DNA of 64,000 nucleotides, taken from positions 1 to 64,000 of the forward strand of contig NZ_JAAIYO010000021.1 in NCBI RefSeq assembly GCF_014930455.1, in the 5' to 3' direction. This stretch comes from Corallococcus soli. Lineage in GTDB: Bacteria; Myxococcota; Myxococcia; Myxococcales; Myxococcaceae. The notes under the pieces are model-generated. The model made no database searches. It was not told where the DNA came from and was given only the letters and a program-made list of their open reading frames with translations. Positions 1,661 through 62,679 of the stretch are shown piece after piece. A program made the position numbers and the translations under genes. The first letter of the stretch is position 1. Each line of letters opens with the position of its first letter.

Positions 1661-4600
1661 CTACTTTCGACCATACGGGGCCCCACAGCTTCCACGTTCA
1701 GCACAGGACATTCCAGGCGTAACTTCCCCACGATTATTCGCAGACAAGTTACAGGCGGCACCTTCAAGACATGTATTGACCTCCTCAAGATTTCCACCAG
1801 CCGAAGCGGGCACATTTCTATGCCCCAAATGCATATCATCTGGATTCACAGACTCCTGACCACAGCGCCAACATTGATACTTCGCCTTGCCACCACCACT
1901 AGACTTAGCCCGCCTAACCAGTTCCCTAGCGCGGGCATGTCCTTCCTCCGAACCCCGGGCCCCAGCAGTAGGACCTCCTCGGCTTGCAGCAACCTCGGCA
2001 GCAGTCGCACCTTCACCGTCCTTTAACACAACGCCCTTACCGCCAACAGGCTGTTCTCGTGCAGGCCTAATAGGATTCGACTTAGCAATGACATCAATCG
2101 TTTTCCCGTCACCCTTGGCTCGCCTGACGCCAACAAGCATACGCTGACCAGTGGCACCACCCGCCCCCCAAGGCTTGATGTCTATATGGCCGCGCTGGCT
2201 CCTCAGAAATGACGGATGCGAACGACTGAAGTAATTGAATTCAGCAAACGTCTCGCCCAATGCCTTCGACGCAGATTTAACTGTATCTTTCGACTGAAGC
2301 GCGAACGGACCCACCTCAACCAGGAATTGAATTCCAGATTCAATCCGGCTTGCCTCAGATCCAGCTACGGTCGTTCCCGAAACAACTCGCTGGCCCGAAT
2401 CCAGAAGAGGCACCAGCCCCGCTGAACTCTCCGCACCTGCAACGCTGTTCCGAGATGGATTTGACTCCATCGGAACAAGGCGGAATGAGAAGACGCGGTA
2501 CACGCCTCCAAATGCTCCGCCGACACCGTCTCGAGGAGGTGTCCAAGCGACATGACCACTTGCGTCAGCTGTTTGCTGCCCGCCTCCCCAATACTGAAAC
2601 CACCAAGCAAATCCCTGACCTACAATATCCTCCGGGGAAGGCAGCGTAAGCGAAGACCCGAACTGGCCACCAAAGCTCCCCATATCGGCTTGACGGCCGT
2701 CTGGATCCGTATACCGAAGAGGATTGGAATTTCCATACAGCCACGCCTGCATTCCCGTGGGCACGTCCAGATAATTCAATGCACCAACAGGGTCCTCGGA
2801 CAGAAAGCGTCCTGTCCTGGAGTCATACCAACGCTGTTGTGCGTACGTCAGTCCTGCTTCTGCATCCCATGCGTGTCCGGTATACCCAATGCTGGCCTGG
2901 GCCGACGTCGGACCGCTTCCTTCACGGTAATTTCCCCACGCATCGTAGCGATGCTGGGTCGCGGTTCCGCTGGACGGAACGCGCTCCACGGCGCTGCCCA
3001 ATCCATCCTGGAGGATGCGCTCCGAGCCAACCGCTACCGTGAGGCCTGCACCGCGCTGATAGAGCACATCGGTAGAGTTCGGCAGGTGCTCTTCGACCAG
3101 TGTTTCGCCACTCCACAGGTACTTCGTGACGGCAGCGTCGACAGTGCGAGAACGCCTCAAACCCGCGAAGTCATACTGGTACTTCACCTGGCGCTGCTGG
3201 TTGCCTTCCGTCCACTCCGCTTCGACCAGCCGCTCTGCGGCATCGAAGTGGAACAACTTCGTGAGGGCTCCACGCTGTTCGCGCACCACTCGACCCGCTC
3301 GGTCGGTCTGGTACTGCGTGACGACCGCGCCGGCAGACAGCTCATTCCGGGTCTCCTTCAAGCCCCCCAGTGCATCATAGACATACGCCAGATGCTCTTG
3401 CGGCTGGGACGCGGCTTCAAAGCCTGCCTCGCTCAAGGCCCCGGCGTAGCCCGTGACCTTCTTTTCAGCCTTGCGAGACCCATCCTTGTACAGCGAATAA
3501 AGCACCGACTGGCCTTCCGGGTACCGCACCCCTGTCAGCCGGTCCGCTGCGTCATAACCGTACTGCGTGGACTCTGTGCTCCCAGGCGTTTCCGTCTGGA
3601 ACCGGTCCACGACCTCCGTCAGCCGGTTGCCCCGCTCATCATAGGTGTAGCGGTAGCGCAAGAAGGGCGACCCGATCACGGCGTTGCAGTTCTCTCGCCG
3701 TGCATCGTGCGTGACGGAGGCGAGCCGGCCCCGGCTGTCGTGGCAGTAGGTGTGCTTGAGCGCGGCGTTGCCGACCATCGCAACCCGGCCTCCTCCCGCT
3801 TCCCACTCCACGTTCAACGCCGTGCCGTCCGCGAGCGTCACCAGGCTGAGCCGCTGCAGTGGCCCCACGTCGTAGTTCACCGTTCCGGACGGCGACTGCA
3901 CGAACTTCAGCGCACCACTGTCGTGGTATCCGTAGGAGATCGTCTCAGCGCCACCGCCAATGCTCTCCAGCCGGTTGCGCGAGTCGTAGACCAGCGAACG
4001 CACCGTTTGCGTGAGCCCCCGGTGCTCTTTCGCGCTCCGAAGCTGATCCAGTCCGTTGAACACGTAGTCGACCGAGTCCAGGTCCTTGAAGACACGCAAG
4101 GCTCCGGAGGCATCCGCCGTGGCCGGCCCGGCGATGAACTTCTCGTGCACCACGCGGCCGCGGCCATCCACCACCCGCTTGACCCGCTCGCTCAGCTCAT
4201 TGAGAACCTCGGGATTGCCGTCGGTCCACGTCGTGGACCACGCCGCCGAGCCCCGCTTGCGCAACTTCTCACGGCCCAGGAAGTCATAGCCGTACGTCAC
4301 CTCGGGAGTGACGGAGCCGGTCGGGGGCTCAATCCGCTTCAGCCGAGCTTGGCCATCGTAGGTGTACTTGAAGTCGCCCAGCCCGGGAGGCGTGACCTGG
4401 AGGAGCTCGTCCCGCGGACCGTACTTGTATTTCCAGAGAGCCTGATCGGCGGAGCCGTACGCGTGCCGCACCTCGGTGGCGTGACCGGCATTGTCATAGG
4501 CGTCAAAGCGGGTGCGGCTGAGGTCAGGGGCCTTCCCAAAGGTCTCCAACTCCGGCAGGCCACGAGCGTTGTACGTCAGCGTCCGCACCCGCGTATCCGG

Positions 4601-7600
4601 TGAGGTCTCCGACCGAAGCAGGCCGTCCGCGTAATACGCATACGTCGTCTGCTCCGGGCCGAAGCGCATCACCTTCACCCGGCCGCTGGTGTCGTAGACC
4701 CAGCGAGTCACCTCCATGGAGCCAAAGCCAAACGGCTGCGTCCGCAGGGGCTTGCCGTCCGCATAGTAATCCCTTGCGTCCTCGGCCCCTGCCTGGGTGC
4801 GCCGGACCATGTTCCCAAGGCTGTCGACCTTGGCGTGGACTGTCCTGCCTCCCTGGTTCTGGTTGTTCATCAACCACGACTCGATGGTCGAACCGTCGCG
4901 ACCATTCCAGGACGTGCTGGTGGTGTACTTGTAGCTGTAGCCACCCAGGGACCAGCTCTCCTCTTCGTTCCGCGTGCGCCCCCGGTCGTCAATCGCGGTT
5001 GCCTGGTCGCGCGCGACCACCTGCACCGAATCGCCTTCGCGGGTTTCCTGCCGCTTCATCCAGGGGCCGTCGTAGCGGGTCCGGATGGAGCGCTCCTCGC
5101 TTGATCCTCCCTTCCAGACCTCGTGCTCCACCATCCCTCGCGCATTGCGCGTACGGGCAATGACCGTGCCTTCGGGTTCGGTCTCCGTCTCGACGCCATT
5201 GCCTGGATAGGCGTAGGTCCACTGCGCCGGGGGTGTCTGGTCATTCAACGTGCGCGACAACAACCGTCCCAGGTCGTCGTAGGTCAACGTCCACGACTCA
5301 TCCTCTCGCGGCCCCGACTGCGTCAGGACATTGCCTTCCGCGTCATGGGTGAAGGCGGTCATGACATTGCCTGGCCAGGTCACGGACAGCAGGTTCCCCG
5401 CGGAATCATATTCACGGCGCGTCCTGCGCCCGGACGGGTCCACCGACTCGACCTCGCGCCCGAGCGCGTCGTAGTCCATGAGGTGGACGGACAGCTGTCC
5501 GTCCACCGTCTCCGTCACGCTCAGGATTCGTCCCTGCGCATCCACTGAATAGGTGCGCACTTCTTCCCGATCCGCGGGCTCCGTTGGCGTCCCGCCCGAA
5601 AGATTGCGCGTCACCTGGATGGTGCTGGGGCTGTCAGGGCTGTCTGTGTACGCGCGCGTCTCCGTCAGCGTCCTGACGCCATTCACGGACTGCACCATGC
5701 GCTCATATCGCGTCACCCGGCCCAGGGCATCGTCGTACGCATAGGTCTCATCCAGGCCTGTTTCGACGTCCAGACGGTGCAGCACCCTGCCCGCCTTGTC
5801 GTACGTCGTCTGAACGTGGATGCCACCATGGCTCTGGGCATTGCTGTCCACAGACAACTCACGGCCCATCGCGTCCGACACCGAGTCCATCACGTGCGGC
5901 TTCGCGAGCGTGCCGAACGTGCGCGTCTTCACCGCGCCCGCGGCATCCAGCACCACCGTCTCGACATCCGCGAACTGGCATGCCTCGTCGCAGGATTCTC
6001 CTGCGCCCTTGGACTCATACGCCCACCGCACCGGCCGACCCAGGGCGTCGTGTTCAATCCGTGTCTTGAGTCCGCTGCTGTTCGTGACTTCGGTGACGTT
6101 GCCGTCCGCGTCCAGCTCATTCGAGTAGAGCGTCTGTCCATTCACCGTCTCGCCCGTCACCCGGCCTGCACTGTCGTACGTCAGCGTATGCCGTCTCCCC
6201 CGTCCGTCCAGGAACGACATCAGCCGCGTGCCCTGGTAGGTGTCGTAGTCCACGACAGCGGACTGGATGCTCAGCCCGTACGTGTAGCGCTCCGCGCGCT
6301 TGAGCCCTTGCTGGTAGTCCGTTGTGTTCGACTGACTGCGTCCCCACCTGCCGAGATTCAGCGTCTGGGTCACGGTCAACGCATCGTCGGCGAGCTGATA
6401 GTCATACGTCCACGACTGGGCCGGCGTGCCGGCCACCGTGCGCGTCAGCAACCGGCCGACGGCGTCGTAGGTGAGCTGGACGTGCGCCCCGGTCGCCAGG
6501 TTCCGCTCGGAAGTGCGATTGCCGAGCACGTCGTAGCCGTATTCCACTTCGTAGCTTCCAAGGCCCCCGGCGCCGACGAGCGTCCGCGTCACGGTGGCCA
6601 CGAGGGGCAGCCCCAAGGCCTGCGTCTCGTGGCCGGAGTACGTGATGGCGTTGCCTGTCGGATCCTCGCCGCCCTGGACCACGCCATCCGGATCCGGGAA
6701 CTGCTGCGCCGAGAAGACGACCTTCGCCGTCGCGTCCGTCACCGTGACGCCCGTGGGGTCGCCAGCGGCCGACAACGGCCGGCTCACGCTGGCCATGCCG
6801 TGGCCCGTGGCCACCGCCATGCCCAGGACCCGACCCGTCTGGGATTGACGCTCCGTCACGGACCAGAGCGCCCCATCCGTTGCCCCCGGCACCGGATGGC
6901 TGTTCGCTGGCGCGGCCTCCAACGTCACGGCATCCAGTTGGAGACGGGGGTTGAGGGTGTTGCGCAGCGCACGCCCACCGGGTGTCCCAGACACCTCCAC
7001 CTGTACCGGTCCCCCCCGGACATCACTGCCCCACTGCACCGTGCTCGGGCCCAGCCCCGGCACATGGGTCGCGTTCGTGTTGCCATACGCGTTGAGATCG
7101 AGCGCCACGTCCACGCCATCCGGGCGCTTGACGGTGCGCGCTTCCTCGGTCGCTGAAACAATGCGCCAGCCCGGCGCGGGCATCCCCGTGCCGACCACCG
7201 ACGTGACGACCTCCAGGGGGTCCACGTGCGGGTACGTCCCCTGTTGCGACTCGCGCGCGTACGTTGCCTGCCACTGCACCACGGGCGCTCCCCCCGCGGG
7301 CGGGCTCAACATCAACCGCGCCGTCGTCACCTCGTTGGAGGCGCTCCAGAGGGCGTGTCCGCGCAGCTCCGTGGGAAGCGGCACATAGCCATAGTCCCAG
7401 ACCTGCGTCGCGGGCAGCGCGGAGCCCCGGGTGACCGTGAGCAGGTTGCCGCGCTTGTCGTGCGTGAAATCCAGATGGTGCAGCATCTGCTGTGAGGCCT
7501 TGACGCGCACTTCCACCGTCTTCAGCAGCGCGAAGTCCTGGTTGCGCGCCATGTTGCGCAGCCGGTACGCCACGGTCTCGTCGCTGGTGTTGATGTCCTC

Positions 7601-10600
7601 ATAGGTCATCTGAAGCTGGAGGCGTCCCGGCGTGCGCTCCACCGTCTCCACCAGATTGCTCTTGGGCTTGTAGGTCAGCCGGGTCCATCCATCATCCCCA
7701 GACGCCCGCCCGTGGCCGTCATGGAAGCGATCCAGCAACCAGCGTCGGTGCCAGTCTTCCTCGAAGCCCCGGGCCCGTGTCTTGAATTCGTAGACGAAGC
7801 CCTCCGCCGTCGTCACGCGGGCCAGCTCCTGGCCATCACGCTTTTCCACCGACAGCTCCATGCCGTGGGAGCGGTCCGTGAGGCAGCCGGACGCGGTGCG
7901 CGCGTCTTCGTCCACGGAGGCGCAGTCAGGGAAGTCGTATGCCTGTCCCGCCACCACCACCGTGTAGCGCCCCACCCGCTCTTCCTGCACGAAGCCTTCG
8001 TAGTTGTTCGTCCAGCCGACGCCCGTGGGGGTCACGAGGCTGCTCTGGTTGTTGTACGTCCGCGCGAAGCGGACCACCTCCGCGAGCTGCGGCACGGAGA
8101 AGTCCTCGTGCTCGAAGGACAGGTGCCCGTCCGCCACGTTGATGCCCTGGACGGTGAGCTGTCCCGGCGCGCGCGCGTTCACACCCTCGAAGCGGCCGCG
8201 CGGCCGGCCCAGCGTCTGGACCAGTTGCCTCGGCTCCGGAAGGACCACGTCCTGCAGCAGGTAGAAGCGCTTTGACTCCACCCCCGAGCCTGGCATCGAC
8301 ACCAGGTGGGCGGGAATCGGCTGCTGGAAGAGCCGGGCCCCGTTGAGCCCGAACTCCTCCTGCTGCTCCAGGTCGTCCTCGGCCAGGCCTCCGGCGGCCT
8401 CCTGCACGTCGTAGGTTCCATCCGGCAGCAGTCGCACATCCGCCTGGTTCACCACGCTGCCCGCGTCACACTCCTTCGACGTGCAGACCTTCACCGTGCC
8501 GGTGTGGATGACGCCCGGATCCAGGGCGAAGTGCGCGGTGGCCGGCAGGGAGATGGCGCGGTCCGTGACGGAGGTGCCCCCGGTCCCTGTCTCCACCGAG
8601 CGCTGCGCCGTGAAGGCACTGCCCGCCGTCAGCAGGTCCACGCGAGGGGCCATGCCCATCAGGTTGAAGCGGTAGAGGACGTTCTCCGCGTTGCCACTGA
8701 GGTACAGCTCCACGTACAGCAGGTCGTTGGCGGCCAGGACGTCGTCGATGAATTCGTTGTCACACGCGCCGGAGATGGACTCGGCGGTGACCTCGAGCTC
8801 GCACTCCACGCCGTACTGGTCGCTGCCGAAGCGGACGACATAGTCGCCAATGGGCGTGGTGGCCCGGCCGGGCTCTGGCTGCAGCATCTCCGCGAGGAAC
8901 TGGTAGGCCAGGTCGTCCGAATCCGCTTCGGCCTTCTCCCCTTCCAGGACGCGCGAGTCGAGCGAGCCCTGCGCGGTGACCTTCGGGTCGGTGAGCTCCA
9001 CCACCTGGAACTCGTGTTCGCGGGCGGAGTCGTAACGCAGCACCCGGAAGCCGTCCGGATCCAGGCCCGTGTAGACATTCTTCAGCCCCACCGCGCGCGC
9101 GGGGAGCCCGGGGGGATGGTCGGCGATGGCTTCCGTGAAGTCGGGCGGGGGCGCGTTGCGCTCCTCCGGGCGCAGCACGCCGTCGCCGTCCCGGTCGCGG
9201 GGGAATACCTCGTGCCCCACGACGTGCAGGTAGTAGTTGGCCCTGGGCAGGCTGCCCAGGTTGATGCGCTGTCCTGACGGCGTGACGATTCGCATCGTCG
9301 CCTGGAGCGCGGCGGAACCCCGCCCCGGGACCACCCCGAACTGCGCCACCGCCGGCTCCTCCACCGCCGACTGCGTCACCCGCACCACCCGCCCCGCCAG
9401 CGGCGGCACCCCTCCGGGGACGTCCTCCAGGTCTCCCTGGCGGAAGCACGCCACGGTCTTCGTGAGCTGACTCGCCGTGCCCGGGCCATAGGCGGAGCAG
9501 GTCTCCAACAGCCGCCCCGAGATCCCCTCGTCCCGCAGAAAGTCCGGGCTGCACGGCGGCTTGCCGCCATCCGCGCCCGGCTCCCGGCACGACGCCGTGC
9601 CCCCGTCGACCCGATCCTCCGGCAGGCCCGCGTCCACGGGCGTCTCACGCACGCCCCCATCCTCCGAACGCCACTCGACCGGCGCGAGCGTCCGCACGCG
9701 CCAGTGCGTGTCCAGGTGCACGTAGGTGTCCCGCGTGGTCGCGGCGCCGCCCGTGCGCACAAGGGTGGGCGGCTGGTCCTGCCGGACGCCCTCGGAATCC
9801 GCGCTGCGCCACACCCGCACGTCGATCTCCGGCGGGTAGAGGTACACCGGCGCGTTGATGCCCAGTGCCGCCACCGAGCAGCGCGACAGCCGTGCCGGCT
9901 TCCCGAAGTCGTCGACCACCAGCGGTCCCAGCTCATCATCCAGCGCACAGCGCCCTTTCGCGTCGAGCTGCTGCTGGGTGATGGCCGGCACCTGGATGCG
10001 CGTCATGCCGGTGTGGCCCGTCGCGTGGTTCACCGCCACGACCACCAGCGGCTCCCCGGCCGTCAGCCGGAGGAAGTTCGTGCGGTTGTCCCGGCACTCC
10101 GTCTCATAGAAGGCGCGGTCCGCCCCCTCCACGGACTCGGGCGCGGGTGCGCTCGGGTCCTGCTGGATGGCAGGGTTGAGTTCGAGGCAGCGCTCCCGGA
10201 TGACCCGCTTGAAGGGCGCCGTCGGTCCCATCCGCACCCGGGCGTAGTGGCCCTGCGCATCGCGCTTCCCGGGCTGCTGCACCGCGCACTCGGTATAGGG
10301 CACGCCCACGGTGAACTGGGCGATGGGGCGCTCCAGGTCATCCGCGCGGAAGAAGTGGACCTCCGTCCGGGGGATGTCCGCGTTCGCGATGGACGCGTAG
10401 CCGCCCTTCTCCGCGTCGTATTCACTGACGTCCTCCGCGGCGCAGTCATGCCGCAGCGCACGTCCCTCACGGTCCACGAAGTGGAGCGCGCCATGCAGCA
10501 GACGGGCGTCGACGAGGATGTCCGCGCGCGTCTGCCGGCCCGAAAACGCCGTGAAGGTGGGGGAGCAGGCCGGGTAGCTGGCCATCACCAGCGACTGGAC

Positions 10601-13600
10601 GACCGCCGCGCCCGTCTTCGGATCATGCCCCAGCAACGGACGAGGTCCCATCGGGATGTCCGCGCAGGCGATGCCCATGGCTTCGCCTCCCGGAACCAGG
10701 ACGGGGATGCCGTATTCGCCCGTCGCGCCCGTGGTGCCACTCATCGTGGGCCCCGGCCCCGTCACCGTGACGCGCACATCGGGGAAGCGCACGACCGACT
10801 GGAGCTCCTGGCCGCCGGAGCTGGCCTGCTCGTCCAGGGCGAAGTGCAGCCTGTACGCCTGCACGCCCGCGTCCGCCACCGGGACGGTCCGCACGGTGAG
10901 CGTCACCGTGCGCAGCTCGCTGCCCATCCGACCACCGAACGTGATGACCGTGGTGCCCCCCGGGATCAGCTCGACGTTGCCCGCGAGCTCCAGCGCCAGG
11001 TCGTCAGCACGCTGGGCGCTGATCGCCCACGACTCTCCTTCCGGAGGAGAGATTTCCGCCCCCCCTTCGGCCTTCGCCGAAAGGAACAGATCCATGCGCT
11101 CGGTGCCGGAGCCATCCGAGATCCGCGAAGCCCGCAGCGACACGGGCAGCGCGTAGGGGAACGTCACCTGACGGGGGATGGAGATGAATTCGGTCAGGTC
11201 TTCGGAGAGCTTGACGGTGAGCTGCTGATCCTGCGGCGCGCGCAGCCTTCCGGTGATCGCCGCCGGGACCAGGTTCTGGATGTACTGATCCAGGTACGGC
11301 ATGACGCCCAGGACGAGCTGCGCATGCGCCTCGGGGACAAGCACGTCCAGGGCCTGCTTCCACCACGGCACCTCCAGACGCTTCAGCCCTCCCGGGGGCA
11401 GCGCCCCCTCCATGCCGCCATCCGGGAGCGCACTCCCCTGCCCTCCCGTCCGGGCCAGGGCCTCGCGCACCACCGCGTCCTGCTGTTCGGTGAGGGCCAT
11501 GTAGCCCACGAGCTCCACCGAGCGCAGGTCGAGCGGCTCCTGCGTCTGGATGGACGCTTCGTCCTGTGACACCTGGGCCAGGCCCGCGCGCGCGAGCAGG
11601 TGGTTGCGCGGCTCGTACGCGAGCACCACCACGTAGCGCCCCGGCCCCAGATTCGTCACGTTGGGGAACCGCAACTGGACGGGCTTCTGGACCCGGATGC
11701 CTCCGGGCCCCACCTGCCAGACGGCGGTGGGCGTGGCGTTGTTCTCCAGCCGCACGGGGAGCGACACGGGCCGCAGCCGCGTCGCCGTCAACAGGCCCTC
11801 GGTCCGCCCGTCCTCGAACAGCAGCGAGCCCGCTGGACCGTCAAGGGCCAGCGCGCCGTGCCGCTGGGCGAAGTCCACGTGCAGCGACTGCGTGGTGTCC
11901 ACCCGCGTCGCGCTCGCGGTGTCCACGGCGGTCAGCGCCAGCGGCGCGTCCACCGTCTCCACCTCCGGCGTGATGCTCAGGAGCCGGCGCACGGTGGGCA
12001 GGGGCCGCCCGTCCGACGTCGCCCCTCCCTCGTAGCGGACCACGCGCGGTCCCGACACCGACGTGATGAACGACCAGTTTCCGTCCGCCCCCGTGCGCAC
12101 GGACTCGGAGGTGCCCTCCAGGACGACGCGCACGCCGGACAGCGGCTCGAAGGCGTCGTCCATCACGTAGCCGCGCACCCGCGTGAGCGGACGCCGCACC
12201 GTGAGCTCGCTGTAGAAGTCCGCGTCCTGCTGGGGCCCCACCTCCGCCTGCACGCCCTGCACCCGGACCTGCAACAGCGCGCCCTCGGGCAGCGGTGCCT
12301 GGGCGATGAAGCTCGCCGTCTGCCCACCCGGCGCCAGCGAGTAACCGCCCTTGAGCTCCTGCCCCTGGTTCAGGACCTTGAAGCCCTGCCGCACCGACGC
12401 CAGCGTCGCGGCCTTGTTGAAGGACACGCTGATGAGCGCGTCCGACTTGATGTCCCGCGCGCCCGACAGGGGCTGCACTCCCGTGACGACCAGCGGTTCG
12501 GTGGCTGGATTCCGATAGCGCACCACCACGCTGGCGCGGCCCGTCAGCCCATTCACGTCCGTGGCCAGCACATGGAGCGTGTTCTCCCCCAGCGACAGCG
12601 CGAGGTCCGCCCCGTACACCCCGGGAGCCTCTTCCGCGGCGACGCCCGTGCCAATGCGCACCTCCGCCAGCCCGGCGAAGGCCACCACCTTCGCCCGCAC
12701 ATGCACCACCGCCGTCGGGGACTCGCTGCCGCTGACGGGCGAGAGCACCGACACCTGCGGGGGCGCATGGTCGACGTTCAGGATGACGCTCTTGCGCTCC
12801 ACGTTGCTGGCCTGGTCGACCGCCACCACCTCCACGACCGTCTGTCCCTGCACCAGCGATACCGGCACGCTGAAGGCACCGCCCAGCACCGTCGCGGGCT
12901 GTCCCTGCACGGTGACGCCCGCCAGGTGCGTGTCACCGACGGTTCCCCTCACGACATAGGGAGACTCAGTCACCGTGGCCGGACTCGCCGCCGGCTGCGT
13001 CACCACCACGGTCGGCCTCGTGCGGTCCACCGCGATGACGCGCGACGTGTTCGCCGCGCGGCCCTCCGCGTCCGTCACCTGCACGTCCAGCGTGTGGTCG
13101 CCCTCCGGGAGCGCCATCGACAGGGTGAAGCTGCGCACCGACACCGAGGCGTTGACGCCGTTGACCTTCACCTGCAACGGCAGCGTGCCACCCTGCACCT
13201 GGCCCACCACCGCCACGCTCGTCCCGCCCAGGACCGCCCCCTGCACGGGGGCCTCCAGCGACAGCAGCGGCGCGGCCGTTCCACTGCCCGCGTCAAAGGA
13301 CGGACCCGCATCCGCCGAATTGCCTCCGCCATCCGGCGGGCTGCCCGCATCCAGCCCCGTGCCGGCATCCCCCACCGTGCCCGCATCCGCGAGTCCTCCG
13401 TCGGGCAGCGTGACGTTGCGCGTGACATTGACGGTGGCCTCCGTGCGCAGGCCATAGCCATCCATCGCCACGACCTTCAGCGCCTGCGCTCCGGGCGACA
13501 GCTGCACCGTGCGCGTGAACGTCTGGTTCGACGACGTCGCGGCCAGCGCGCCCGCCACCACCACCGTCACGCTGTCCGTGCTGTCCGCGGACGACGCGCT

Positions 13601-16408
13601 TCCCTGCACCGTCACCGAGCCCTGCTCCGTCACCAGTCCGTCCACGGGCGCCGTCAACGACAGGGAGGGCGCCGTCGAGTTGGCGCGCAGCTGCAGCGTC
13701 TCCTCGTCCAGGTTGTCCGCCGCGTCCGTGAGCCTCAGCAGGAGCGTGTTCGCGCCCTGCGCCAGCGCGTGCGTCACCTCGAAGGTGCCGTCCGGCGCCA
13801 GGGGGGCGGGCGCACCGTTCACCGTGAGCACCATCGGCGTGGCATCCGTCGCGGTGCCCCGCACCTTCACGGAGAGCGCGCCGATGCGCGCGTTGACGGA
13901 AGGACTCGTCACCACGAGCTGGGGGGCAATCGAATCTCGCAGCACCGTCACGCTCGCGCTCGAGGCGTTGCCCGCCGCGTCCAGCACGCTCACCACCAGC
14001 TGGTTGGGCCCTTCGTTCAGCGGCACCATCCGTCGCCACACGTTGCCAGTCCCCTTCACCAGTTCCACGCCCCCCACCTCCACGCGGACCACCTGTTCGG
14101 GGTCCGTCACGGACACCGCGACCTCCACCTGCGCCTCACGCGTCACCAGGCCGTTCTGCGGCGATTGGATGCTGGGCACCACGGGTGCCGTGTCCAGGGA
14201 GAAGGTCCGCTGCACCTGGGCGCTGTTTCCCACCTGGTCCACGGCCGTGACGACCAGCGTGTGGGCGCCCGGGGCCTCCACGACGCCCCCGCTGGTGAAG
14301 GGCGAGCCGTCCAGCGTCGCGGTGACGGTGCCCGGGTGCACGTCCTCCACCGTCCACGTGAGCGTCACCGGCGTGTTGACGTGTTGTCCCTCCGCCACGC
14401 CCGTCACCGTGATGACCGGCGCGGTGCGGTCGATGCTGAAGGAAGCAACGCTCGACGCCGTGTTGCCGGCCAGGTCTTCAGCGGTCACCTCCAGCAGGTA
14501 CACGCCGTCGAGCGTGACCTCCGTGCCGCTCAGGAAGGGCGCGCCGTTCAACGTCGCGCTCACCGACGCCAGGTTCGGTTCCACCAGGGTGAAGACAGGG
14601 GTTACCGACGTGGTGACCGGGCTCGTCGCGGGCAGGCCGCTCAACGTGATGGCCGGCGGCGTGAAGTCCAGGGTGAAGTGCAGCGACTTCACGGTCCGGT
14701 TGCCGGCCAGGTCCAAGGCCTCCACCTCCACCGTGTGGGGCCCCGGGGAGGAGATGGTGTTTCCGCTGGCGAACGGAGCCCCATCGAGCCGGGCCGTTAC
14801 GCCGTCCTCGCGCAGGTACAGGTCCGTGGCGCTGTAGGTCACCTCCACCGGCACGTTGCGGTGCGCCCCCTCCGGCACGCCCGCCAGCGTGACGTTCGGG
14901 AAGGTCAGGTCGATGGTGAAGGGGACCTCAAGGATGCCGTAGTTGGCCGCCCGGTCCTTCGCGACGAGGTGGAGCGTGTGCGGTCCCGGGAGGGACACCG
15001 GGGTGCCGTTCTGCCAGCCCACGAAGTCCAGCGTGAAGGCGGTGGTCTCCAGGTAGTCGCTTTGCACCGTCACGATGGGCGTCACGGTGCCCGGGTAGTG
15101 CTTGTGGGGGATGACACCCGCGACCTGGATCGTGGGGCCGGTGAGCTGGAGGCGGAAGCGCACCCGCTTCTTCGCCACCCGTCCCTCCACGTCCTCCGCG
15201 GTCACGAGCCAGTCGTAGGAGCCTTCCAGGGAGACCGTCGCTCCGTTCACGACCGGCTGTCCGTTGAGCGTGGCCGAGGTGGACGCCAGGTCGGTTCCCG
15301 TCGCCTGCCAGGAGAGCGTGACGGGCCCCCGGGTGATCTCCCCTTCCGTCACGCCGCTCAGCGTGAGGACGGGCGCCTGGCTGTCGAGCGCGACCGGACG
15401 GCACACGCGGGTCGTGTTGCCGCAGGAGTCCTGGAGCACCGTGGTGACGGCATTGACGCCCTCCACCAGGGGCACATCCAGGTGGAATCCGCTCTGTCCC
15501 GACAGGGCGGCCGACACGCCGTTGATGACGACGCTCTTGCTGTCCACGCCGAACTGGCCGGACACGGAGATGGGGGAGCTGGTGAAGAAGGCGCCCGGCT
15601 CCGGCTCCAGGACGTTCAACATGGAGGGCAGGGTGTCCGCATCGAACAGCGCCACGCGCACCGACGACTCCGGGCCGCCCAGGACCGTCAGCGCCAGGTG
15701 GTTCGTGGCCGCCAGCGGCACCTTCGCCGCGAACGCGCGCTTCTGCGCCCCGGTCAGGCCCGCGAACATGTCCACGCCATTGAGGACGACGGCGCCATCC
15801 GCATCAGGGCCCACCATGTCCACCACCAGCACGCCCACCGTGCCCTGCCCGGGCGGCGCGAAGTCCGCCGCCCACGAAGGGGTGGCCGCTCCGGCCTGGA
15901 GGTAGCCCGAGTTCACCACCTGGCACGGCAACGCGCCCAGCGGTGCCACGGACACCCGCACCGCGCCACCGCCGGTCGTCGTCACCGAGAGCTCGTTGGC
16001 CACCTGCAATGCCACGCGGTACACGGCCAGCGGGGTGCCGGTGGCGACACGGCCCAGCACCGCGCCGTTGAGCGTCACCTCCGAGGACGTCACCTCGTTC
16101 GCGCCACGCGCATCGCCGTTCTGCACGACGACGAGGGCGGGTTCGCCCAGGGTCCCCGTGAAGGAGGAGGTCCCCGGCGAGCCGCCCTGCACCACCAGGG
16201 TGCCACCGCGCCACGCCGGCCCCACGGCCTGCTCGATGACGCCATTGCACGCGGGCGCCAGCTCCGCCGCGGACAGATGCACGCGGGTGGAGGCCACGGG
16301 GGCCGCCGCCGCGACCTCGACGGGGCGCTCCGGCGTCTTGTCGCATCCCACCACCGCCGTCAGCAACAGCGCTGCCCACAGCCCCCAGACCTGCTTCCGC
16401 CCGCTCAT
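1661..16408 (-). CDS. Giant RHS/YD-repeat lipoprotein with C-terminal HNH-like nuclease toxin tip
   Basis: The protein has 4,915 residues, far longer than most RHS proteins. It starts with a lipoprotein signal (LLTAVVGC, lipid Cys at residue 22). In order it shows Ig-like and glucodextranase-type beta domains (about 250-1000), an Asp/Gly/Ala-rich linker (about 1000-1050), more Ig-like domains, a Big_5-like domain (about 1310-1420), a carboxypeptidase-regulatory-like domain (about 1415-1500), a long mixed beta region, a DUF6531-type RHS entry domain (about 2760-2900), YD repeats (about 3290-4480), the RHS core ending RYTDPDGR (about 4483-4573), and a 340-residue variable tip. The tip ends in an HNH-like zinc motif: CWRCG, then LGHR, then GGNLEE, then CNLSANNRG (about 4840-4900). 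In this class the shell encloses the toxin. No PAAR or VgrG part is present, so export is probably Sec-dependent and not type VI. The ATG overlaps the preceding gene by 4 nt and follows a strong GGGGGAGGAG site. Confidence 0.93.
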   Translation of the reverse strand: MSGRKQVWGLWAALLLTAVVGCDKTPERPVEVAAAAPVASTRVHLSAAELAPACNGVIEQAVGPAWRGGTLVVQGGSPGTSSFTGTLGEPALVVVQNGDARGANEVTSSEVTLNGAVLGRVATGTPLAVYRVALQVANELSVTTTGGGAVRVSVAPLGALPCQVVNSGYLQAGAATPSWAADFAPPGQGTVGVLVVDMVGPDADGAVVLNGVDMFAGLTGAQKRAFAAKVPLAATNHLALTVLGGPESSVRVALFDADTLPSMLNVLEPEPGAFFTSSPISVSGQFGVDSKSVVINGVSAALSGQSGFHLDVPLVEGVNAVTTVLQDSCGNTTRVCRPVALDSQAPVLTLSGVTEGEITRGPVTLSWQATGTDLASTSATLNGQPVVNGATVSLEGSYDWLVTAEDVEGRVAKKRVRFRLQLTGPTIQVAGVIPHKHYPGTVTPIVTVQSDYLETTAFTLDFVGWQNGTPVSLPGPHTLHLVAKDRAANYGILEVPFTIDLTFPNVTLAGVPEGAHRNVPVEVTYSATDLYLREDGVTARLDGAPFASGNTISSPGPHTVEVEALDLAGNRTVKSLHFTLDFTPPAITLSGLPATSPVTTSVTPVFTLVEPNLASVSATLNGAPFLSGTEVTLDGVYLLEVTAEDLAGNTASSVASFSIDRTAPVITVTGVAEGQHVNTPVTLTWTVEDVHPGTVTATLDGSPFTSGGVVEAPGAHTLVVTAVDQVGNSAQVQRTFSLDTAPVVPSIQSPQNGLVTREAQVEVAVSVTDPEQVVRVEVGGVELVKGTGNVWRRMVPLNEGPNQLVVSVLDAAGNASSASVTVLRDSIAPQLVVTSPSVNARIGALSVKVRGTATDATPMVLTVNGAPAPLAPDGTFEVTHALAQGANTLLLRLTDAADNLDEETLQLRANSTAPSLSLTAPVDGLVTEQGSVTVQGSASSADSTDSVTVVVAGALAATSSNQTFTRTVQLSPGAQALKVVAMDGYGLRTEATVNVTRNVTLPDGGLADAGTVGDAGTGLDAGSPPDGGGNSADAGPSFDAGSGTAAPLLSLEAPVQGAVLGGTSVAVVGQVQGGTLPLQVKVNGVNASVSVRSFTLSMALPEGDHTLDVQVTDAEGRAANTSRVIAVDRTRPTVVVTQPAASPATVTESPYVVRGTVGDTHLAGVTVQGQPATVLGGAFSVPVSLVQGQTVVEVVAVDQASNVERKSVILNVDHAPPQVSVLSPVSGSESPTAVVHVRAKVVAFAGLAEVRIGTGVAAEEAPGVYGADLALSLGENTLHVLATDVNGLTGRASVVVRYRNPATEPLVVTGVQPLSGARDIKSDALISVSFNKAATLASVRQGFKVLNQGQELKGGYSLAPGGQTASFIAQAPLPEGALLQVRVQGVQAEVGPQQDADFYSELTVRRPLTRVRGYVMDDAFEPLSGVRVVLEGTSESVRTGADGNWSFITSVSGPRVVRYEGGATSDGRPLPTVRRLLSITPEVETVDAPLALTAVDTASATRVDTTQSLHVDFAQRHGALALDGPAGSLLFEDGRTEGLLTATRLRPVSLPVRLENNATPTAVWQVGPGGIRVQKPVQLRFPNVTNLGPGRYVVVLAYEPRNHLLARAGLAQVSQDEASIQTQEPLDLRSVELVGYMALTEQQDAVVREALARTGGQGSALPDGGMEGALPPGGLKRLEVPWWKQALDVLVPEAHAQLVLGVMPYLDQYIQNLVPAAITGRLRAPQDQQLTVKLSEDLTEFISIPRQVTFPYALPVSLRASRISDGSGTERMDLFLSAKAEGGAEISPPEGESWAISAQRADDLALELAGNVELIPGGTTVITFGGRMGSELRTVTLTVRTVPVADAGVQAYRLHFALDEQASSGGQELQSVVRFPDVRVTVTGPGPTMSGTTGATGEYGIPVLVPGGEAMGIACADIPMGPRPLLGHDPKTGAAVVQSLVMASYPACSPTFTAFSGRQTRADILVDARLLHGALHFVDREGRALRHDCAAEDVSEYDAEKGGYASIANADIPRTEVHFFRADDLERPIAQFTVGVPYTECAVQQPGKRDAQGHYARVRMGPTAPFKRVIRERCLELNPAIQQDPSAPAPESVEGADRAFYETECRDNRTNFLRLTAGEPLVVVAVNHATGHTGMTRIQVPAITQQQLDAKGRCALDDELGPLVVDDFGKPARLSRCSVAALGINAPVYLYPPEIDVRVWRSADSEGVRQDQPPTLVRTGGAATTRDTYVHLDTHWRVRTLAPVEWRSEDGGVRETPVDAGLPEDRVDGGTASCREPGADGGKPPCSPDFLRDEGISGRLLETCSAYGPGTASQLTKTVACFRQGDLEDVPGGVPPLAGRVVRVTQSAVEEPAVAQFGVVPGRGSAALQATMRIVTPSGQRINLGSLPRANYYLHVVGHEVFPRDRDGDGVLRPEERNAPPPDFTEAIADHPPGLPARAVGLKNVYTGLDPDGFRVLRYDSAREHEFQVVELTDPKVTAQGSLDSRVLEGEKAEADSDDLAYQFLAEMLQPEPGRATTPIGDYVVRFGSDQYGVECELEVTAESISGACDNEFIDDVLAANDLLYVELYLSGNAENVLYRFNLMGMAPRVDLLTAGSAFTAQRSVETGTGGTSVTDRAISLPATAHFALDPGVIHTGTVKVCTSKECDAGSVVNQADVRLLPDGTYDVQEAAGGLAEDDLEQQEEFGLNGARLFQQPIPAHLVSMPGSGVESKRFYLLQDVVLPEPRQLVQTLGRPRGRFEGVNARAPGQLTVQGINVADGHLSFEHEDFSVPQLAEVVRFARTYNNQSSLVTPTGVGWTNNYEGFVQEERVGRYTVVVAGQAYDFPDCASVDEDARTASGCLTDRSHGMELSVEKRDGQELARVTTAEGFVYEFKTRARGFEEDWHRRWLLDRFHDGHGRASGDDGWTRLTYKPKSNLVETVERTPGRLQLQMTYEDINTSDETVAYRLRNMARNQDFALLKTVEVRVKASQQMLHHLDFTHDKRGNLLTVTRGSALPATQVWDYGYVPLPTELRGHALWSASNEVTTARLMLSPPAGGAPVVQWQATYARESQQGTYPHVDPLEVVTSVVGTGMPAPGWRIVSATEEARTVKRPDGVDVALDLNAYGNTNATHVPGLGPSTVQWGSDVRGGPVQVEVSGTPGGRALRNTLNPRLQLDAVTLEAAPANSHPVPGATDGALWSVTERQSQTGRVLGMAVATGHGMASVSRPLSAAGDPTGVTVTDATAKVVFSAQQFPDPDGVVQGGEDPTGNAITYSGHETQALGLPLVATVTRTLVGAGGLGSYEVEYGYDVLGNRTSERNLATGAHVQLTYDAVGRLLTRTVAGTPAQSWTYDYQLADDALTVTQTLNLGRWGRSQSNTTDYQQGLKRAERYTYGLSIQSAVVDYDTYQGTRLMSFLDGRGRRHTLTYDSAGRVTGETVNGQTLYSNELDADGNVTEVTNSSGLKTRIEHDALGRPVRWAYESKGAGESCDEACQFADVETVVLDAAGAVKTRTFGTLAKPHVMDSVSDAMGRELSVDSNAQSHGGIHVQTTYDKAGRVLHRLDVETGLDETYAYDDALGRVTRYERMVQSVNGVRTLTETRAYTDSPDSPSTIQVTRNLSGGTPTEPADREEVRTYSVDAQGRILSVTETVDGQLSVHLMDYDALGREVESVDPSGRRTRREYDSAGNLLSVTWPGNVMTAFTHDAEGNVLTQSGPREDESWTLTYDDLGRLLSRTLNDQTPPAQWTYAYPGNGVETETEPEGTVIARTRNARGMVEHEVWKGGSSEERSIRTRYDGPWMKRQETREGDSVQVVARDQATAIDDRGRTRNEEESWSLGGYSYKYTTSTSWNGRDGSTIESWLMNNQNQGGRTVHAKVDSLGNMVRRTQAGAEDARDYYADGKPLRTQPFGFGSMEVTRWVYDTSGRVKVMRFGPEQTTYAYYADGLLRSETSPDTRVRTLTYNARGLPELETFGKAPDLSRTRFDAYDNAGHATEVRHAYGSADQALWKYKYGPRDELLQVTPPGLGDFKYTYDGQARLKRIEPPTGSVTPEVTYGYDFLGREKLRKRGSAAWSTTWTDGNPEVLNELSERVKRVVDGRGRVVHEKFIAGPATADASGALRVFKDLDSVDYVFNGLDQLRSAKEHRGLTQTVRSLVYDSRNRLESIGGGAETISYGYHDSGALKFVQSPSGTVNYDVGPLQRLSLVTLADGTALNVEWEAGGGRVAMVGNAALKHTYCHDSRGRLASVTHDARRENCNAVIGSPFLRYRYTYDERGNRLTEVVDRFQTETPGSTESTQYGYDAADRLTGVRYPEGQSVLYSLYKDGSRKAEKKVTGYAGALSEAGFEAASQPQEHLAYVYDALGGLKETRNELSAGAVVTQYQTDRAGRVVREQRGALTKLFHFDAAERLVEAEWTEGNQQRQVKYQYDFAGLRRSRTVDAAVTKYLWSGETLVEEHLPNSTDVLYQRGAGLTVAVGSERILQDGLGSAVERVPSSGTATQHRYDAWGNYREGSGPTSAQASIGYTGHAWDAEAGLTYAQQRWYDSRTGRFLSEDPVGALNYLDVPTGMQAWLYGNSNPLRYTDPDGRQADMGSFGGQFGSSLTLPSPEDIVGQGFAWWFQYWGGGQQTADASGHVAWTPPRDGVGGAFGGVYRVFSFRLVPMESNPSRNSVAGAESSAGLVPLLDSGQRVVSGTTVAGSEASRIESGIQFLVEVGPFALQSKDTVKSASKALGETFAEFNYFSRSHPSFLRSQRGHIDIKPWGAGGATGQRMLVGVRRAKGDGKTIDVIAKSNPIRPAREQPVGGKGVVLKDGEGATAAEVAASRGGPTAGARGSEEGHARARELVRRAKSSGGGKAKYQCWRCGQESVNPDDMHLGHRNVPASAGGNLEEVNTCLEGAACNLSANNRGEVTPGMSCAERGSCGAPYGRK

Positions 16409-17316
16409 CGCGACTCCTCCCCCACCCGACTGCCCGCATCCGGCGGGGTCGCTTCCAGCGGACGCAGCGCCTGCTGGAAGCGCTCCACCGACACGCGCTC
16501 CCGCAGGTCCTTCATCAACCGGTCTTCCGCCTCGCGGCGCGACTGCGCCGCCAGCCGTCCCCGCGCCTCCTCGAACGACGGCACCCGCGTCTCCACGGGC
16601 GCGAGCGCCTGGACGATGTGGAGGCCGTAAGGCGTCTCAAACGGCTTGCTCACCTCGTCCTTCTTCAGGGCCGCGGCGGCTTCGAAGAAGGAGGGGTGGA
16701 TCTGGCCTTCCAAGATCCTGCCCAGGTCCCCGCCGCGCGGCGCGGTGGCCTCGTCCTGGCTGGACTCGCGCGCCACCTGTTCGAAGGACGCTCCGCCCAA
16801 CAGGTGGGCGTAGAGGAGGTTGGCGCGGTCCCGGGCCCGGCGCTTTTCAGCCTCGTCCGCCCCCTGCGGCAGGCGGAGCATGATGTGGCGCACGTGGAGT
16901 TCCCGGCGGGACAGGGCCTCCTTCGAGGACGCGAAGCGCGCACGCAGCGCCTGCTCCTGGGTGGCGTCCTTCAGCTGCTCCTCCAGCAGGGCCTGGGCGA
17001 GCACCTCGCGCCGGGCCGCCGCCAGCCGCGCGCGCAAGCCCGGGCGGTCATCAAGCCCCTGCGCTTCGGCCTGTTCAGCGAGCCGGGCCCGGTCGATGAG
17101 CGCCTCCAGCTGCGCCTGCGTGTCACCGGAGTCAGGGGCGCGTTGGGAAGCGAAGGCCTCCACGTCCGCACGTCGCAGTTCGGTGCGGCCCACCCGGGCC
17201 ACCACGTCCTCGTCGCGGCAGCCAGCGACGAGCGCGGCTGTCAGAAAGAGGACGGTCGTGATTCGCACAGACGGGTGAAGCACGGAGGTGCTCCGGTCGC
17301 GAGGAAGACGGGTCAT
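16405..17316 (-). CDS. Parvulin-type peptidyl-prolyl isomerase lipoprotein (second in operon)
   Basis: The protein has 303 residues. It has a lipobox (LVAGC, Cys33), a helical SurA/PrsA-like N-domain (about 38-135), and a parvulin domain (about 138-240) with HVRHIMLRL, GGDLGRI and the closing PYGLHIV strand. A helical tail follows. It should catalyse proline isomerisation or act as a chaperone at the envelope for exported proteins. It sits between two giant secreted proteins and overlaps both by 4 nt (17313-17316 and 16405-16408), so it is probably devoted to them. The ATG at 17316 has no clear ribosome site. A GTG at 17283 has GGAG seven bases upstream and gives a more typical 22-residue signal sequence, so it may be the true start. 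Confidence 0.9.
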   Translation of the reverse strand: MTRLPRDRSTSVLHPSVRITTVLFLTAALVAGCRDEDVVARVGRTELRRADVEAFASQRAPDSGDTQAQLEALIDRARLAEQAEAQGLDDRPGLRARLAAARREVLAQALLEEQLKDATQEQALRARFASSKEALSRRELHVRHIMLRLPQGADEAEKRRARDRANLLYAHLLGGASFEQVARESSQDEATAPRGGDLGRILEGQIHPSFFEAAAALKKDEVSKPFETPYGLHIVQALAPVETRVPSFEEARGRLAAQSRREAEDRLMKDLRERVSVERFQQALRPLEATPPDAGSRVGEESR

Positions 17317-20300
17317 GGGAGGTTGTGGGTCGACGACTGCAAGCGCGAACTGGAGTCCACGGTCAGGGTGCCGGTGATGTTCAGCGCGTCCGGCGTGGCC
17401 AGGGAGGCCTTCCGGGTGACGGTGAGGTTGCGGAAGGTCCGCGAGCCCGTGGCGTTGATGAGCAGCGGTGTCGGGAGCTGGGTCGACGGGTTGAACTGGC
17501 CGTTGGCGTTGTCGACGATGAGGTCCCCGTACGGCTGGGCATGGGCCTTCAGATACACGGTGCCGGGTCCACCGCCCTGGTAGCCACCGACTGCATTGAT
17601 TCGGGTCCAGTCAAAGGTGGTGCTGCTCTCATCGTAATAGACGGCCACGCGACCACCGCCTCCGCTGGTCCCACCCACCAGGGCCATGGACCCCGTGCCC
17701 GTCAGCGCGCCGACGTCCAGCCAGATGCTGCCGCCCGCGCCACTGTAGTAGCCCGAGCCACTGTCCTTGCCGCTCGCCAGGAGCATGCCGTCCAGCCGCA
17801 GGCTCGCCGCCTCCAGCCGAAGCACGCCCCCCCCATTGCCTCCCGGCTGGGCTCCCGGGCCGCCCGAACCGCCTCCGCCCGCCTCCTTCGGTTCCTGGTA
17901 GTCGCCATAGGGCGCCACATTCATGTTCGCCCCATGGCCGGCATGGCTCCCGTGGGCGTTGTTCAGCCCGGTCGAGAGGTTTCCCAGGGTCCGCCCCGCC
18001 TGCGTCTTGTTCACGCCCTGCCGCCCTCCCAGATATCCGGCCCCGTCCAGGTTGATGGCGGCGCCAGGCCCCACCTCCACCGCGCCACTGACCTCCAGAT
18101 TCAAGGGCAACGGGCTGCCGTCCTCGGCCCGGCCCGCGCCCAGGGTCGCATTCAGGCCGGTCACCTTCAGGCTCGAAAGCAGTCGCGGCTGGACTCCAGA
18201 CAGGAGCAGGCCCGTCCCGGTCCCCTCGACCTGGATGATGGAGGTGGACACCCCCTCCAGGATTTCCGCCCAGGCGGCGTTGCGCGCCAGGATCCGGTCA
18301 TACGTTCCGGTTGACACCACCGTGGGTGCGAGGATGGCGCGATTGAGGGCATGGTTCGACTGGTCCAGCACCAGTTCGCCATTCGGCTGCTGGCTGCCTT
18401 TGAGGAACACGGTGCCCGTTCCTCCCGAGACCCCGCCTGGCGCCGAAATCCTGCTCCAGTCGAAGGTGCTGGTCGCCGTGTCGTAGGTGACGGCCACACG
18501 CCCGCCGCCACCGCCGCCGCTGCCGACGTCGCCACCGCCAGAGGCCTGGATGCTTCCGGTCCCGGTCAGGGCCCCCACCTCCAGTCGGATGCTTCCTCCC
18601 GCCCCATCGTAGCCCGTGGAGAAGAGACTCCGCGCGCCATTGGAGAGGAGTCTGCCATCCAACTTCAAGCTGCCCGCCTTCAACCAGAGCACGCCACCAC
18701 CGCTTGCTCCTGTCAGCGAAGACACGGCGCCTCCCGAGCCCCCCGCGCCGGAGTCCATCGGGGCGTGAAGGTCACCATGGAGTGGCACCGCCGTGGAGCT
18801 GGATTCCACGTCTCCGAAACCACCGTGGCTGCCGGCCGCCGCGTTCCTGCCCGTCGAAACATTCCCGACGGTCCGGCCCGGACGTTGCTCATTCGCGCCC
18901 TGCCACCCGCCCAGGTATCCGGCGCCGCTCACGTCGAGGGAGGCCCCGGTGCCCACCTCCACCGTCGCGGCCTCCAAGGCCAGGGGCTGCGGCGCCGACC
19001 CATCCAGACTGGCGTTCAACGCCAGCGTGGCACCGGTGCCCGTCACCTTCAGGGTCGAAAGACGCAACGGATTGCCGCCGGTCACCCTCAGGGCCGCGTT
19101 CGCTCCGTTCACCTCCACCGCCAGCCCATCAGCGAAGGCCCAGGGCTGCCGCAGGTCCAGGAGCCCCCCGCTGCCCAGCACCCGCAGCGCGGTGAGGTCT
19201 CCGCTCAGCGCGCCCTGGACGATGACCGAGGCCCCGTCCACCAGCAGGTCGGACGCCCAGAGCGCTCCCGTCACTTCCACGAAAGCCTTGTTGCGCGCCA
19301 CGAAGCGGTCATACGTGCCCCCCGGCACCCGGGTGGGCTTCGGGTTGTTGGTGCTGACGGTGCTGGTGCCGTGGTCCAGGATGAGCTCACCGTCCTGCTG
19401 CTGGCTCCCCTTCAGGAACACCGTTCCCGGCCCCGCGGCGTTACCACCCCTCGCGGACACCTTGCTCCAGTCGAAGCTGGTGCGGGCCGTGTCGTAGTAG
19501 ACGGCCACACGCCCGCCACCACCGTTATCCGCGCCCACGGCTTCCAGGGCCCCCGTGCCGGTCAGCGCCCCCACGTCCACCCGGACGCTTCCGCCCGCGC
19601 CACCGAAGGGACCCGCGCTCTTCCCTCCATTGGCCCGGACAGTGCCGTTCAACTGCAGGGTGTCCACCGTCAACCGGAGCAGGCCGCCGCCATTGCCACC
19701 CAAAGCTCCCGCCGGGTTTCCGCCCGAGCCTCCAGAACCGAAGTCTGACGGGTTCTTGGAGTCACCATAGGTCGGCACTGGCACGGCGCCGATTGCCAGG
19801 ACGTTCGAGTATCCGTGGCCCCCGTGGCTGCCTCCCGCCACGCTCTTGCCGGAAGAGACGTTGCCGGTCGTCCGCCCTGGCTCCAGTTCATTGACTCCCT
19901 GGTGCCCACCGAGGTAGCCGGCCCCCGTTGCGTCAATGGACGCCCCGCTGCCCACCTCCACCGTGGGGGCCTCCAACTCCAGCGACCGCGGCTGACCGTC
20001 CAGGTTGGCATTCAGTGCCAGCGTCGCGCCGGTTCCCGTCACCTTCAGGTTCGACAATCGCAGCGGCGCTCCACCCGTCACCCTCAGTGCCGAATTGTTG
20101 CCCGTCACCTCCACCGCCATGCCAGCCGCGTAGGACCACGGCTGCCGCAGGTCCAAGGTACCGCCCCCCTGCACCCGCAGCGTCGTGAACCCCCCAGCCA
20201 GTTCGTCCAGGAAGACGACGCTGCCTCCGTTCACTTCCAGAGTCGGGGTCGTGAGGAGTTGCTCCACCTCCACCACGGCCCTGCCGCGCACCGCGAAGCG

Positions 20301-51123: not shown

Positions 51124-51272
51124 ACCGTCCCGAGCCCGCTTCCCAATGGGGCCAGGAAATACTCCAGTTCGGACATTGATCTCAAGCACCTGTAGGATAA
51201 CGGACAGCCTGACATTCAATGGCGTGGGGCCCGCGCATGCGCCCTGGGAGTCGTTTGACCGTGGAGCGTTCG
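51124..51272. promoter_or_regulatory. Divergent intergenic region with candidate promoter for the 50-kb operon
   Basis: These 149 bases separate two divergent parvulin genes and must hold both promoters. On the minus strand TTGAGA (51185-51180) and TATTTC (51161-51156) lie 18 bases apart and could be a sigma-70-like promoter for the operon. The -35 is good and the -10 weak. For the plus-strand gene I see no convincing pair. Its ribosome site is GGAG (51263-51266), six bases before the ATG. Confidence 0.3.
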
Positions 51273-62606: not shown

Positions 62607-62679
62607 CCCGATCCGCTGGGTTCTGGCCGTGGCCCTACCTCGCCCTGGAGGATGAAGCTCTTTCCTGCTGGGGGACTTG

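Follow-up and report, generated by a model that had tools for sequence, protein, structure and literature searches.

A predicted Rhs lipoprotein encoded beside an even larger secreted protein and parvulin folding helpers suggests a two-giant weapon between myxobacterial cells

Introduction

How would a polymorphic toxin be delivered when its Rhs shell is carried at the end of a very long lipoprotein arm? The question is raised by a locus of the predatory soil bacterium Corallococcus soli, analysed here in a window of 64,000 nucleotides (the start of contig NZ_JAAIYO010000021.1). An earlier note on this DNA had described an RHS lipoprotein with about 2,750 residues of β-domains ahead of the shell, and had held that most RHS effectors are type VI or toxin-complex (Tc) cargo or shorter wall-associated proteins. 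That generalisation overlooks Rhs4 and Rhs5 of Myxococcus xanthus, which are of about 4,000 aa, have signal sequences and act in kin discrimination independently of the type VI secretion system (T6SS) (PMC10433427), and it overlooks the teneurin-like proteins (TLPs), predicted Sec/SPII substrates in Gram-negatives that occur in more than 20% of Myxococcota (PMC13018210). According to the latter source the delivery of TLPs is unknown, with no obvious delivery machinery. Since signal-peptide Rhs proteins of M. xanthus and Sec/SPII teneurin-like proteins have been reported, an Rhs toxin with a lipid anchor is no novelty, and large myxobacterial Rhs proteins exported by Sec are likewise already known.

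The apparently new part is a giant secreted protein and a set of parvulins. The gene for the Rhs lipoprotein (here the carrier) stands beside one for an even larger secreted protein (the giant) and those for folding helpers, an arrangement suggestive of a weapon made of two giants and used between cells. From the sequence evidence we consider it reasonably probable that carrier, giant and parvulins make up a self-contained polymorphic toxin system that kills neighbouring, mostly related, cells, and the system is probably contact-dependent. A search of the open PubMed Central literature gave no paper that was recognisable, among the best matches listed and by title or opening of the abstract, as describing a giant-parvulin-Rhs module, and the word 'isomerase' is absent from the available part of a polymorphic-toxin survey (PMC3482391). 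The features of the locus are collected in Table 1.

Table 1. Features of the carrier-giant-parvulin locus, in window coordinates.
Feature	Position	Strand	Basis or remark
Rhs lipoprotein (carrier)	1661..16408	-	single intact frame, 4,915 aa, ATG start
Lipoprotein signal peptide, residues 1-21	16346..16408	-	Cys22 is mature +1; by eye and pattern
β-domain arm, residues 23-2744	8177..16342	-	Pfam Ig-like families and partial model
Best conserved arm part, residues 1400-2700, many invariant Cys	8309..12211	-	alignment
Rhs shell, residues 2745-4570, up to TDPDG core motif	2699..8176	-	modelled to residue 3790 only
Polymorphic tip, residues 4571-4915 (345 residues)	1664..2698	-	identity drop, tip comparison
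HNH-like nuclease part of tip	1733..1996	-	phrog_960 HNH endonuclease, E 1.3e-4
Probable immunity protein, DUF4265, 160 aa	1173..1655	-	5 nt past Rhs stop
PPI2, PpiC-type parvulin lipoprotein, 303 aa	16405..17316	-	4-nt overlap with Rhs start
Giant secreted protein, 10,936 aa, Sec-type signal	17313..50123	-	4-nt overlap with PPI2
Giant residues 2850-7200, about seven modules of ~620 aa (LVIVD, Big_5, TIG)	28524..41576	-	
Giant C-terminal repeats, residues 9600-10936, clade-specific	17316..21326	-	
PPI1, parvulin-like, lipoprotein-type signal	50200..51123	-	upstream of giant
PPI3, SurA/PpiC-like lipoprotein, divergent	51219..52241	+	start likely 51273

The Rhs carrier

The N-terminus of the carrier (MSGRKQVWGLWAALLLTAVVGC; start-codon context GGGGGAGGAGTCGCGATG) is basic at first, then hydrophobic, and leads into the lipobox VVGC, the signal being called by pattern and by eye. 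A lipobox-like pattern, slightly wider for part of the homologs than for the window protein, recurs in 28 of 34 homologous N-termini, and the signal is therefore no chance feature; in the remaining six a Cys closes the hydrophobic stretch next to a non-canonical neighbour. The frame is intact throughout, and the lipoprotein call of the earlier note is upheld.

Over the whole protein, Pfam finds Glucodextran_B six times, Big_13 and Big_7 (just below cut-off), together with weak CarboxypepD_reg and Big_5 matches. DUF6531 follows at residues 2756-2813 and then RHS_repeat, and Rhs_assc_core is identified by TIGR03696 (E 2e-16), so that the succession of DUF6531, YD repeats and RHS core is as the earlier note had read it. 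The best conserved part of the arm, 41-78% identical over 15 homologs, has no solved relative apart from a weak CarboxypepD-like stretch. When residues 1500-2640 were scanned separately, Pfam gave a single weak CarboxypepD_reg match (E 0.086). The predicted model of residues 1560-2745 is β-rich but of low confidence (mean pLDDT 58), and its PDB matches are generic β-sandwich proteins only (query TM <0.1). Closer to the shell, the model of residues ~2618-2740 resembles Ig-like domains with Z scores from 8.3 to 5.7, partly inside the range of common arrangements. The Ig-like families and the β-rich model agree with the long β arm described before.

The predicted model of residues 2610-3790 is good (mean pLDDT 80.6), and as it meets T6SS Rhs shells from residue ~2744, the figure of about 2,750 residues ahead of the shell proves correct. 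The model aligns with 8qja (Z 22.8, rmsd 5.7, 839 aligned) and with RhsA 7q97 (Z 22.3, rmsd 7.1, 811 aligned), scores lower against teneurins and the teneurin-like protein 9ifo (for 9ifo Z 16.7, rmsd 7.2, 770 aligned), and also aligns with TcB-TcC. The Rhs-core aspartyl cleavage motif (DPxG ... DPxG) is present as EDPVG ... TDPDG. In the carrier alignment (16 rows, the window protein as reference, three contig-cut homologs excluded) both Asp residues are aligned in all 16 rows, with the following residues varying somewhat; the spacing between the two halves exceeds the X18 described in PMC13018210.

That T6SS Rhs proteins are closest in shell fold, and that the T6SS sheath protein VipB is matched in the window's own genome, would suit a type VI effector. 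We give this reading hardly any credence in view of the lipobox, the absence of PAAR, VgrG and any other type VI domain from the whole carrier (Pfam), and the lack of a VipB match in three of 31 carrier genomes. The domain content and these three genomes lead us to reject type VI cargo, in keeping with what the earlier note had said on this point.

Polymorphic tips and immunity genes

Along the whole carrier, identity to the window protein is about 0.3-0.7 per 100 residues in the 16-row alignment. Right past TDPDG at residue 4570 it drops from 0.67 to 0.22 and then to about 0.1. Among the tips of 29 of 34 homologs (five in which the motif was not recognised were dropped) similarity is found in 6 of 406 pairs, and in four of these six it is limited to the first part of the tip. 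The earlier note had called for a survey of the same N-terminus with other tips; the same arm was found in 31 of 96 Myxococcaceae genomes, with mostly unrelated tips. As in other Rhs/YD polymorphic toxins, a conserved carrier is thus joined to a variable C-terminal tip, and a putative immunity gene, recognised by position and family, lies directly downstream.

For the window tip there is no convincing match in NCBIfam, Pfam or PDB, and its HNH-like part suggests that it is probably DNA-cutting. Resemblance to known toxins is seen in 4 of 15 homologous tips: an XOO_2897-type deaminase is the only one above the curated cut-off, and YwqJ-type deaminase, BURPS668-type deaminase and Ntox50 tips fall below it, in one homolog each. 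The other 11 match no toxin family, which we count against the reading as a toxin system.

The DUF4265 protein is, by position and family, the probable immunity protein. Our literature search for DUF4265 as a described immunity family gave one paper containing both words, a Fusobacterium study. A downstream ORF was found by a crude rule in 20 of 33 loci. The 13 loci that lack one by this rule weigh against a toxin system, and the rule misses ORFs, as a short downstream ORF is listed in at least 3 of the 13. Ten downstream ORFs of relatives were scanned, and SUKH-3, Imm33-like, ankyrin and TPR matches were obtained, once each; that the other six match no known family also speaks against the toxin reading.

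Orphan cassettes, in which a repeated shell end is followed by another tip and an ORF, lie downstream of the carrier in genome G131 (locus L104, oriented ~15557-20000), and these are a usual sign of tip exchange. In the window, the immunity ORF is followed closely, where the contig starts, by the C-terminal part of an IS66 transposase (5-790, + strand). ORFs judged by eye to be IS66-like come after the tip in G028 too. Such elements perhaps aid tip exchange.

Co-occurrence of carrier and giant

The lipoprotein signal, the arm and the absence of a type VI part, as given in the earlier note, all stand; what its interpretation missed is the giant partner and the parvulins. The carrier was surveyed with a profile of arm residues 1400-2700 and the giant with a profile of its first 348 residues. 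In the 96 Myxococcaceae genomes the arm profile matches 31 at E<1e-80 (35 genomes at E<1e-3, four being dropped as matching over only ~50-90 positions), and the giant N-terminus is found in 32 at E<1e-40, out of 42 listed overall. All 31 arm genomes also have the giant (Fisher p 2e-24, relatedness ignored). Four genomes (G053, G055, G063 and G070) have two Rhs loci each and two giants each, and in the sole giant-only genome of the family, G010, the giant is cut by a contig end.

Named genomes with the carrier include those of Corallococcus exercitus, C. praedator, C. sicarius, M. xanthus AM003, M. eversor, M. vastator, M. llanfairpwllgwyngyllgogerychwyrndrobwllllantysiliogogogochensis AM401, Pyxidicoccus caerfyrddinensis and Citreicoccus inhibens. 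Within the window's genus the arm is patchy, being present in 7 of 16 genomes, which implies that the match of carrier and giant is not forced by shared ancestry alone.

A survey of 195 genomes of the phylum, in which few candidates were scored per genome, listed 46 for the arm. Of these, 35 match at E<1e-80, the others being short matches, and 34 of the 35 have a near full-length giant N-terminus. In the other, G156, the giant match is partial and lies in the Ig-like end of the profile, which counts against the toxin-system reading. For the giant profile 113 phylum genomes are listed, most of them matching this Ig-like end only. In a second giant-only genome, G157, a contig end again truncates the giant.

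At the 36 giant loci of the family the giant precedes the Rhs gene in 24 and follows it in 6, and 6 are split across contigs; for some loci with divergent giant C-termini this adjacency rests on coordinates. The two proteins also diverge together, the Rhs and giant distances being correlated over 10 loci (Mantel r 0.92, p 2e-4). In G071 the system seems to have decayed, with short giant-gene remnants (C1, 9102351-9102763) some 6 kb away from a PPI3-like gene.

The giant protein

An ORF of 10,936 aa might be taken for an NRPS or PKS, and this identity is ruled out by its signal peptide and its Ig-like, TIG and LVIVD modules. BLAST of the whole giant against itself showed no repeats; tiling revealed them, with mutual identity of the internal modules at or below 47%. 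Residues 1-9300 are colinear in six giants, with an occupancy of 0.94-1.0 almost throughout (minimum 0.90) and 0.30-0.57 identity to the distant clade; the giant G070b has no start in this alignment, being cut by the boundary of the extracted stretch. The C-terminus differs between clades. The 29 of 36 giant frames that exceed 9,600 aa and are not known to be cut have a mean length of 10,634 aa (SD 434), the seven excluded being that of G010 and six shorter ones, which include a split frame in G059 and are not all accounted for.

Near-constant length and module order set the giant apart from repeat adhesins. This bears on the possibility that the pair is a cell-surface organ of adhesion or motility in which the toxin tip is secondary. 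Adhesin-type domains do make up most of giant and arm, and an M. xanthus rhs mutant, MXAN_6679, is affected in predation and motility (PMC10433427). Set against the fixed module order, the tip polymorphism and the immunity-type ORFs, these points leave such an organ very unlikely.

Parvulins and locus layout

In the window the order is giant, PPI2, Rhs carrier, DUF4265 ORF. PPI2 is present in 33 of the 35 loci that have upstream DNA, among 37 loci examined. It is missing at two loci of G070, which we set against the toxin-system reading; there, two giant-Rhs pairs stand in tandem (C5, 59 kb to 143 kb), with PPI2 at neither. PPI1 precedes the giant or PPI2 in the loci whose DNA there was examined. 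In 26 of 36 loci PPI3 lies no more than 3 kb from where the giant starts, and in 5 more it is, by coordinates, beside PPI1. PPI3-like genes also occur in genomes that lack the module. In G059, G063, G074, G075 and G078 (loci L032, L033, L037, L035 and L034) an extra secreted YD/Rhs-like protein of ~1,400 aa is encoded between PPI2 and the carrier (the G059-type variant), and the two of these examined whole carry no toxin tip.

Localisation and proposed delivery

In M. xanthus, Lys at +2 marks lipoproteins for the inner membrane and Ala at +7 for the matrix (PMC3222651). The mature carrier begins CDKTPERP and, lacking both marks, is consistent with an outer-membrane location. Among 19 homologous N-termini, Lys at +2 is found in none and Ala at +7 in two. 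The +2 Asp rule of E. coli would instead retain the carrier in the inner membrane, and this we count against the proposed system. An arm acting outside the cell would have to cross the outer membrane, and that the module contains no gene recognised as an outer-membrane exporter tells against a toxin system as well.

The carrier-giant-parvulin system is real and conserved. The reading as a toxin system draws on co-occurrence, adjacency and co-divergence, on PPI2, tip polymorphism, immunity-type ORFs and the kept core motif, and on Rhs4 and Rhs5 of M. xanthus; the predicted toxin function itself has good support by analogy. For the giant we infer the part of a dedicated partner that serves display or delivery. 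All proteins of the system would be exported via Sec, the parvulins would keep carrier and giant foldable in the periplasm, and the carrier would end lipid-anchored at the outer membrane, its Rhs-core aspartates presumably cutting the tip free inside the shell. With less certainty, the giant might form a rod of fixed build from its Ig-like, TIG and propeller-like modules. Docked to the conserved arm, it could reach, grip or open a target cell, whereupon the nuclease tip could enter cells that lack the immunity protein. We tentatively suggest, at somewhat less than even confidence, that the giant serves outside the cell as an apparatus dedicated to delivering the Rhs shell, representing a new bipartite, contact-dependent delivery class with its own parvulin foldases.

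A different route would be TraAB-dependent outer-membrane exchange, with the Rhs lipoprotein as SitA-like cargo and the giant serving another surface role. A lipoprotein with a nuclease-like tip and a probable immunity gene in a myxobacterial host is what such a route would use, and a SitA-like AHH lipoprotein is encoded in the same window. SitA carriers have one of six escort domains of ~375 aa (PMC8546572), compared with 4,570 aa here, and exchange leaves the strict pairing with giant and parvulins unexplained, so that we regard it as unlikely. A PA14 search for TraA gave six matches in the own genome, and by eye none of five translated loci is TraA-like. The SitA-like gene (62677-64000, + strand, running on past the window; L041 to 4029) encodes 450 aa with lipobox LTGC and AHH nuclease PF14412; the 192-aa ORF that comes next is probably the matching immunity gene.

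A two-part machine like the Tc toxins, with the giant as pore or needle and a loaded cocoon formed by the Rhs shell, perhaps released for predation too, is in our view quite unlikely. It would account for a shell with a larger partner bearing propeller-like modules, and for the alignment of the shell model with TcB-TcC; against this, the T6SS Rhs shells fit the model best, and Pfam finds no Tc family (TcA/TcB) in the giant, a statement that covers a sequence-family scan only.

Finding a partner that co-occurs and co-diverges with a related lipid-anchored Rhs family makes the delivery question testable by single deletion. Delivery by the giant, if true, would show one way in which Rhs toxins with a lipid anchor and teneurin-like toxins get to their targets with no T6SS. 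It is also unusual for a Gram-negative cell to have to export and fold a protein of ~10,600 residues whose module order is nearly fixed and which has parvulins of its own.

Comparison with known systems

Among the closest counterparts by description are Rhs4 and Rhs5, which have the size class and signal sequence of the carrier. They are reported to lie on Mx-alpha prophages, and a giant or parvulin partner is unmentioned in the consulted parts of PMC10433427. TLPs share with the carrier the predicted Sec/SPII signal, adhesion domains, YD shell, polymorphic tip and immunity genes (PMC13018210). They have an NHL propeller between FN-plug and shell, which the carrier seems to lack: Pfam finds no NHL in it and its predicted shell comes directly after DUF6531. 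A teneurin YD-shell model matches the carrier weakly (E 0.028).

Pfam likewise finds no TPS haemagglutination domain, as in CDI and two-partner secretion, in the whole carrier or the whole giant. Tc toxins resemble the present system in combining an Rhs shell with a larger partner, whereas here no Tc family is recognised in the partner, and a lipid anchor and an immunity-type gene are predicted. SitA toxins are, like the carrier, myxobacterial lipoproteins with a nuclease-type tip and an immunity gene; unlike it, they are about ten times smaller and have neither Rhs shell nor giant partner. The T6SS Rhs effectors RhsA, RhsP and Tse5 have the shell fold and the core cleavage motif in common with the carrier, in which PAAR, VgrG and T6SS adaptor are replaced by a lipoprotein arm.
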